Shown piece after piece: positions 16,309 through 16,987 of a stretch of DNA of 32,780 bases. The notes under the pieces were generated by a model that ran no database searches, was not told the DNA's origin, and was given only the letters and a program-made list of their open reading frames with translations. This DNA is from an uncultured Lachnospiraceae bacterium (lineage in GTDB: Bacteria; Bacillota; Clostridia; Lachnospirales; Lachnospiraceae), in assembly GCA_902788645.1 (NCBI GenBank), contig CADAKW010000013.1:13003-45782 (forward strand), read 5' to 3'. The position numbers were made by a program, and so were the translations under genes. The stretch's first letter is position 1. Each line of letters starts with the position of its first letter.

Positions 16309-16422
16309 TTAGCCCTGTCTCTGTTTGTGTCTAGGATTCTCACAGATTACTCTGATACGACCCTTTCTCTTGATGACCTTACATTTTTCGCAAATCGGTT
16401 TTACTGAAGATCTAACTTTCAC
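16309..16422 (-). CDS. rpmJ: 50S ribosomal protein L36
   Basis: A 37-residue protein starting at GTG 16422 with AGGAGG 8 nt upstream. The zinc ligands are C11, C14, C27 and H32 (CEKC...CENPRH), so this is the zinc-binding form. L36 organises rRNA around helices of the 50S subunit. It normally follows infA directly; here 346 bp separate them, filled by a terminator, an inverted-repeat element and a fresh promoter. It is the first gene of its own transcript. Confidence 0.95.
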
Positions 16423-16456: not shown

Positions 16457-16485
16457 ACTATATCACAATTTTTGTGCCAATGCAA
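16457..16485 (-). promoter_or_regulatory. Promoter for rpmJ and the downstream alpha operon
   Basis: On the minus strand TTGCAT (16480-16485) and TATAGT (16457-16462) are 17 nt apart, with TGA before the -10 giving an extended -10. Transcription would begin near 16450, leaving a leader of only about 28 nt before rpmJ. The inverted-repeat element ends 27 bp upstream of the -35, so the promoter itself is intact. Confidence 0.65.
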
Positions 16486-16505: not shown

Positions 16506-16711
16506 AAAAAACGTTACTATTCACAGCAGCTTTCCACTGGAAAGACCTGCATAAGCGAGCTTATGCAAGGTATTTTCTGTAGAAAGCTGCGTGTAAGCTG
16601 TCACTGCCCACAACCTCAGCCAGTGGACGTGCGAAGCACGGACTCTAGCCGCCGGTTTTGCGGCGGGCTGTGGTCTGCGGGCAGTGACGGCTGTGAATAG
16701 TAACAAAAAAC
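16506..16711. repeat. 7-bp direct repeats flanking the inverted-repeat element (possible target-site duplication)
   Basis: The plus-strand sequence AAAAAAC occurs at 16506-16512 and again at 16705-16711, directly abutting the two ends of the element at 16513-16704. On the minus strand this is GTTTTTT, the T-tract end of the infA terminator. Removing one copy plus the element would leave a normal terminator tail. Low complexity of the repeat means chance cannot be excluded. Confidence 0.6.
16513..16704. mobile_element. MITE-like palindromic element between infA and rpmJ
   Basis: A 192-bp element with perfect 15-bp terminal inverted repeats: GTTACTATTCACAGC at 16513-16527 and its reverse complement at 16690-16704. 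Inside are two large hairpin arms. One is bounded by GCAGCTTTC/GAAAGCTGC and contains TGCATAAG/CTTATGCA with a CGAG loop. The other is bounded by GTCACTGCCC/GGGCAGTGAC and contains CGTGC/GCACG and a GC-rich GCCG/CGGC hairpin. No transposase is encoded; a 61-codon frame inside is a by-product. The flanks carry a 7-bp direct repeat. Together these fit a non-autonomous mobile element moved by a transposase elsewhere. A structured RNA gene or DNA-binding site is the alternative. Family and copy number cannot be told from this window. Confidence 0.75.
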
Positions 16712-16750
16712 GGGGATATCCCTGCCATTACAGCAAAGATATCCCCGTTT
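16705..16750 (-). terminator. Intrinsic terminator after infA
   Basis: AAACGGGGATATC (16708-16720) pairs perfectly with GATATCCCCGTTT (16738-16750), a 13-bp stem with a 17-nt loop. On the minus strand it runs into TTTTTT. It lies 18 nt after the infA stop. The inverted-repeat element begins exactly at the end of its T-tract. Confidence 0.9.
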
Positions 16751-16768: not shown

Positions 16769-16987
16769 TTATTTATCTCTCCAGGTAATACGTCCCTTTG
16801 TCAGATCGTATGGAGACATTTCCATTGTCACCTTGTCTCCCGGCAGGATACGGATAAAGTTCTTACGAAGCTTTCCGCTGATATGTGCCAGCACCTGATG
16901 ACCATTCTCAAGCTCTACCTTAAACATTGCGTTTGGCAGCTTCTCCACTACGATACCTTCAATTTCAATTACATCTTCCTTTGACAT
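16769..16987 (-). CDS. infA: Translation initiation factor IF-1
   Basis: 72 residues forming a single S1-type OB fold. [20 protein letters not shown] and the middle [19 protein letters not shown] block are typical, as is the C-terminal [14 protein letters not shown]-1 binds the A site of the 30S subunit during initiation. ATG 16987 is chosen by homology and has GGAGG 4 nt upstream, a short spacing; earlier in-frame codons run back into map. It starts 13 nt after the map stop. The small KOW-domain protein gene often found between map and infA in Clostridia is absent here. Confidence 0.97.

Follow-up and report, generated by a model that had tools for sequence, protein, structure and literature searches.

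A probable MITE-like element in the infA terminator of a Lachnospiraceae bacterium, and the family to which it belongs

The element and the infA-rpmJ spacer

The window considered here is a 32,780-nucleotide stretch of DNA from an uncultured Lachnospiraceae bacterium. Its minus strand carries, in order, infA, an intrinsic terminator, a 192-bp element (positions 16513-16704), a promoter-like sequence and rpmJ. The features of the site are listed below.

16309-16422, minus strand: rpmJ, 37 amino acids, GTG start (identity from protein inspection)
16457-16485, minus strand: putative promoter-like sequence before rpmJ, TTGCAT-17-TATAGT (not reported by the consensus scan)
16506-16512: left target-site duplication, AAAAAAC, 7 bp (read from the sequence)
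16513-16527: left terminal inverted repeat, GTTACTATTCACAGC (read from the sequence)
16526-16590, plus strand: left arm, a long imperfect hairpin; the hairpin is kept among relatives while its letters vary
16596-16692, plus strand: right (core) arm, a long stem around two small hairpins and the conserved part of the family (covariance model R1, covariation)
16628-16640, plus strand: core sub-hairpin 1, CGTGC-GAA-GCACG
16648-16664, plus strand: core sub-hairpin 2, GCCGC...GCGGC
16690-16704: right terminal inverted repeat, GCTGTGAATAGTAAC, the exact reverse complement of the left (read from the sequence)
16705-16711: right target-site duplication, AAAAAAC (read from the sequence)
16708-16750, minus strand: infA intrinsic terminator, whose T-tract is the insertion site and is duplicated
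16769-16987, minus strand: infA, 72 amino acids from MSKEDVIE... (identity from protein inspection)

An earlier note on this DNA had described perfect 15-bp terminal inverted repeats, two arms, the sequence AAAAAAC on both sides and a lack of coding capacity, and direct reading of the sequence bears out each of these. The longest open reading frames, of 61 and 45 amino acids, overlap on opposite strands of the palindrome; the copy is thus short and without coding capacity, as expected of a miniature inverted-repeat transposable element (MITE). Its predicted fold consists of two arms within a terminal stem, with a minimum free energy of -112.6 kcal/mol; shuffles of the same composition average -66.9, and none of 200 was as good (z -9.36).

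The site of insertion in the T-tract of the infA terminator is likewise as first described, but the idea that a conserved operon had been disrupted is softened by the terminator and promoter-like sequence already there. A sequence similar to the promoter-like stretch is present in both congeneric species compared, G001 and G002, whose spacers are empty: in G001 a terminator is followed by the promoter-like sequence, and in G002 the promoter-like sequence is kept and there is no obvious terminator. Neither in the window nor in G001 do infA and rpmJ resemble closely joined members of one operon. Since the two genes are already parted by a terminator (window and G001) and by promoter-like sequence (all three species), the insertion probably sits in a spacer between transcription units and does not split a tightly co-transcribed pair.

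The earlier note had proposed looking for an empty infA-rpmJ spacer in close strains. The element is absent from the spacer in both congeners, and because of this it would have been either gained on the branch of the window species or lost twice.

Mobility and distribution of the family

The window copy is very probably one of a Lachnospiraceae-wide family of non-autonomous, MITE-like DNA transposons, moved in trans into the T-tract of the infA terminator. Exact matches to the end motif, GTTACTATTCRCRG, occur in 77 of 397 sampled Lachnospiraceae genomes, while a reversed control gives 0-2 matches per strand. Six or more ends occur in 28 genomes, the maximum being G266 with 128 + 115 = 243. The genome of the window species does not follow the expectation of many copies: its assembly (80% complete) contains one exact copy, the one in the window, one full diverged relative (on contig C54), one partial copy (C1) and one decayed copy (C12). 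In addition, GGAYGTGCGAAGCACRGAC has true matches only in the genus of the window among the 397 genomes of the bacterial family, the other matches read being unrelated.

Target-site duplications were examined in 76 distinct copies with both ends, with the expectation taken from shuffled flanks. A perfect 8-bp duplication flanks 22 of them (0.29 expected), and 37 have one with at most one mismatch (0.56 expected); lengths of 6, 7, 9 and 10 bp are far rarer. The duplicated sequences vary from copy to copy. The 7-bp direct repeat of the earlier note is therefore present at the window copy but shorter than the family norm of 8 bp; it lies in a low-complexity A6 tract. The copy at locus L091 shows a 9-bp duplication, also in a homopolymer tract, and slippage, which is easy in such tracts, may explain both lengths.

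Comparison shows both the mobility of the element and the duplication of its target: the infA-rpmJ spacer is empty in the congeners, and 8-bp duplications surround copies elsewhere. The MITE-like mobility proposed from the window alone thus holds. Copies share their terminal inverted repeats, the length of the duplication is fixed at 8 bp in the family, and copies occupy unrelated sites with empty sites in relatives, although the copy number in the window species' own genome is low.

In the mechanism proposed, a putative transposase acting in trans would recognise the ends GTTACTATTCAC(A/G)GCC, make an 8-bp staggered cut and insert the element, so that 8 bp of the target become duplicated. The window copy would have entered the infA terminator T-tract in the lineage of its own species, after the split from G001, and the insertion would have left the terminator its T-run and the promoter-like sequence of rpmJ intact. 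Between its ends the element carries a conserved cargo of two arms, one a long hairpin that varies and the other the core arm with its pair of small hairpins. Some copies bounded by these ends are very short, and one of them (L300, 36 bp, ends only) has a perfect duplication. This suggests that the ends alone may be enough for movement and the arms perhaps needless, although the arms of such copies may instead have been deleted later.

Movement by a transposase in trans, as the earlier note envisaged, fits these data, but its source was not found: among the loci read, no autonomous transposon or transposase gene with these ends was seen. A 3.5-kb inverted pair of ends in G206, the sole widely spaced inverted pair examined among the end pairs listed, was rejected as an autonomous transposon; it flanks ordinary chromosomal genes, enclosing apparent pyridoxine-biosynthesis genes and a regulator. 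Inward from twenty unpaired ends lay short or decayed copies, or nothing, and no transposase gene.

Family members range from 28 to 297 bp, most being 180-201 bp, and include truncated and decayed copies. The longest observed, on G168:C36 (L192, 246-542), has tandemly repeated tip units in its long arm and near-perfect duplicated flanks. In G266 several contig ends (L251-L270) fall within element copies, and the family seems to break up that assembly.

The covariance model R1, built on the core arm and run with ten candidates scored per genome, has matches in 9 of 378 genomes and extends the family to relatives in seven more genera, with at least 8 in one genome. Most of these relatives end in GTTACTATTCAC / GTGAATAGTAAC. 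Members in G334 and G391 have the same core with other ends, for example GTAACAGTTCAGCC, and one copy in G391 (L094) has CATTTTTT on both flanks.

Outside the sampled genomes, a pattern scan of 84,980 genomes with GACTCTAGCCGC...GCGGCGG returned 25 matches, of which the Blautia match was read and is unrelated; the others were judged to be chance because they fall in scattered taxa. Three different copies used as blastn queries had no match among plasmids or phages in the collections searched. Viral contigs with the 16-bp ends mostly hold lone motifs, and also one full copy and one 36-bp ends-only copy. The full copy lies in the IMG/VR contig UViG_2882654883_000020 (L279, 7690-7881) and has a perfect 8-bp duplication, TCATGTAC.

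Conservation of the fold

The predicted two-armed fold is a conserved trait of the family, and the impression that the element is more elaborate than a simple MITE is borne out. In 51 distinct rows of the core arm, 88.9% of cells pair and double changes occur in all 31 modelled pairs. Double changes amount to 362 cells, compared with at most 89 in slid-structure controls; these controls have covariation scores of 0.06-0.10, and the model structure has 0.494. Because its rows were fitted to the model, the alignment is biased towards it; it also includes a few reverse-strand palindrome matches, and related copies inflate the counts. The structure of the core arm is kept across genera even where the terminal repeats differ. 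At the level of the genus, the window copy, the C54 copy and its orthologue in G001 have a common fold; at 22 of its 69 pairs, one or more of the three copies has both partners altered. The C54 copy stands between genes of the ThiF and JAMM families (named from inspection); the G001 orthologue is at the same place, and the junction is free of the element in G002, G004 and G010.

Because the fold persists while the sequence changes, its upkeep would come either from selection on the folded strand or from palindrome-correcting mutation. Conserved secondary structure with covariation is what is expected of a structured RNA, and palindrome correction can mimic it.

In the second case, template switching in quasi-palindromes during replication would copy either half of a hairpin onto its partner, with no selection acting on the folded product. 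This is compatible with a MITE and is a serious candidate, with a chance somewhat short of even. It predicts near-perfect stems and two-sided change at an orthologous site. Most stems are indeed near-perfect Watson-Crick; of single mismatches, G-T makes up about 1% and A-C is rarer. Between C54 and its orthologue in G001, where the fourfold sites flanking the copies differ at 36% and 11%, both partners have changed at 9 of 69 pairs that still pair, and 7 of these belong to the 25 pairs of the left arm. However, copies within a genome show mostly single uncompensated changes and few double ones, and the core sub-hairpins are conserved across genera. Symmetric correction would also not yield an excess of G-U over A-C, which selection on the folded strand predicts. 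Such an excess is seen in the stems of the modelled strand folded with G-U off (26:11), in the model alignment (65:22) and in changes between copies within three genomes (28:10), sets that overlap and draw on non-independent copies; it mildly favours RNA.

A further reading takes the two-armed core as a module of RNA or single-stranded DNA whose fold has a function, carried from site to site under selection with its terminal repeats swapped; this is rather unlikely on present evidence. If true, the elements would be mobile structured-RNA cassettes and not plain leftovers of transposases.

An unlikely reading, also compatible with mobility, is that the element encodes a structured non-coding RNA or acts as a cis-regulatory one, perhaps kin to Clostridiales-1, with its dispersal incidental. 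The core arm covaries strongly, the G-U excess points the same way, and several members match Clostridiales-1 below threshold (E 0.004-0.09; 24-29 bits, where 48 are required for gathering). Rfam RF01699, the Clostridiales-1 RNA, comes from Clostridiales and the human gut and is considered a probable RNA that is not cis-regulatory (PMC2864571). The present element has a similar outer stem and long arm with the CGUGCUUGCACG tip; in contrast, the core arm fails to align in the match shown, and the best score, 29.3 bits, is far under the 48-bit gathering threshold. No family in Rfam 15 reaches its threshold, Clostridiales-1 is not matched in the window, and no credible Rfam match appears there at E up to 1. 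A distant link to Clostridiales-1 is possible. Against a primary RNA role stand the traits of a transposon (target duplications, end-to-end inverted repeats, truncated copies, species-specific sites) and the opposite orientations of the window and C54 copies relative to their neighbouring genes.

Comparison with known systems

Returning to the transposon reading, prokaryotic MITEs such as Correia, ERIC, QMITE and Chunjie are shorter than 500 bp, gene-less and bounded by terminal inverted repeats with target duplications; they are mostly intergenic, occur as truncated copies and form stable stem-loop folds (PMC10969869). The present element shares all of these traits, and its family differs in having a two-armed interior conserved by covariation across genera, together with 8-bp duplications.

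The bcr1 repeats of the Bacillus cereus group are mobile. They are about 150 bp long and have a conserved predicted secondary structure (PMC2267715). The likeness to the present family lies in size, conserved fold and mobility; the host group is another one, and the two are likened by description.

Two further readings are far less probable. The first, that the element belongs to the infA-rpmJ junction as a fixed terminator or regulator, is very improbable: the element does sit just past the infA terminator, and on the minus strand the duplicated T-tract comes after its own hairpin, but the same spacer is without it in both other species of the genus and its relatives occupy unrelated sites. 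The empty sites refute a conserved junction element, while a role gained locally is possible. The second, an element processed as a single strand (REP/RAYT or IS200/IS605 type), is more improbable still and is refuted by the target duplications: the element is rich in hairpins, the small ones closed by C-GAA-G loops, but such processing is not associated with long perfect terminal inverted repeats or with target duplications of 8 bp.

A literature search for the end sequence and for Lachnospiraceae MITEs, with subscription journals mostly outside its reach, found no description of the family, and a 2024 review of MITEs mentions neither Lachnospiraceae nor Clostridia (PMC10969869). Lachnospiraceae rank with the most common bacteria of the human gut, and this small mobile element is abundant in them, with up to 243 exact ends in one genome. 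A fold kept by paired changes across genera offers a clean system in which selected RNA structures in short transposable elements can be set against self-repairing palindromes.

Other palindromic and repeated structures were also seen. Beside the partial C1 copy (G000:C1, L002 about 1610-1800) there is another palindrome with two arms, whose ends differ: ATTCGCATATGA / TCATATGCGAAT. On G260:C19 (L069, L071) a long perfect hairpin precedes, at the contig end, a tandem repeat (about 74 bp) that holds GGACGTGCGAAGCACGGAC, and at the 3' end of L261 (G266:C11) a unit around GATTTTCCGA.TGGCGATCATGAGCGCCAGCTCATGATATAATGAGG is repeated in tandem. In G001:C49 (L032 about 1390-1680) there is a duplicated hairpin array with CCACATA/TATGTGG ends and GC-rich sub-hairpins, which matches the core model weakly (25 bits).
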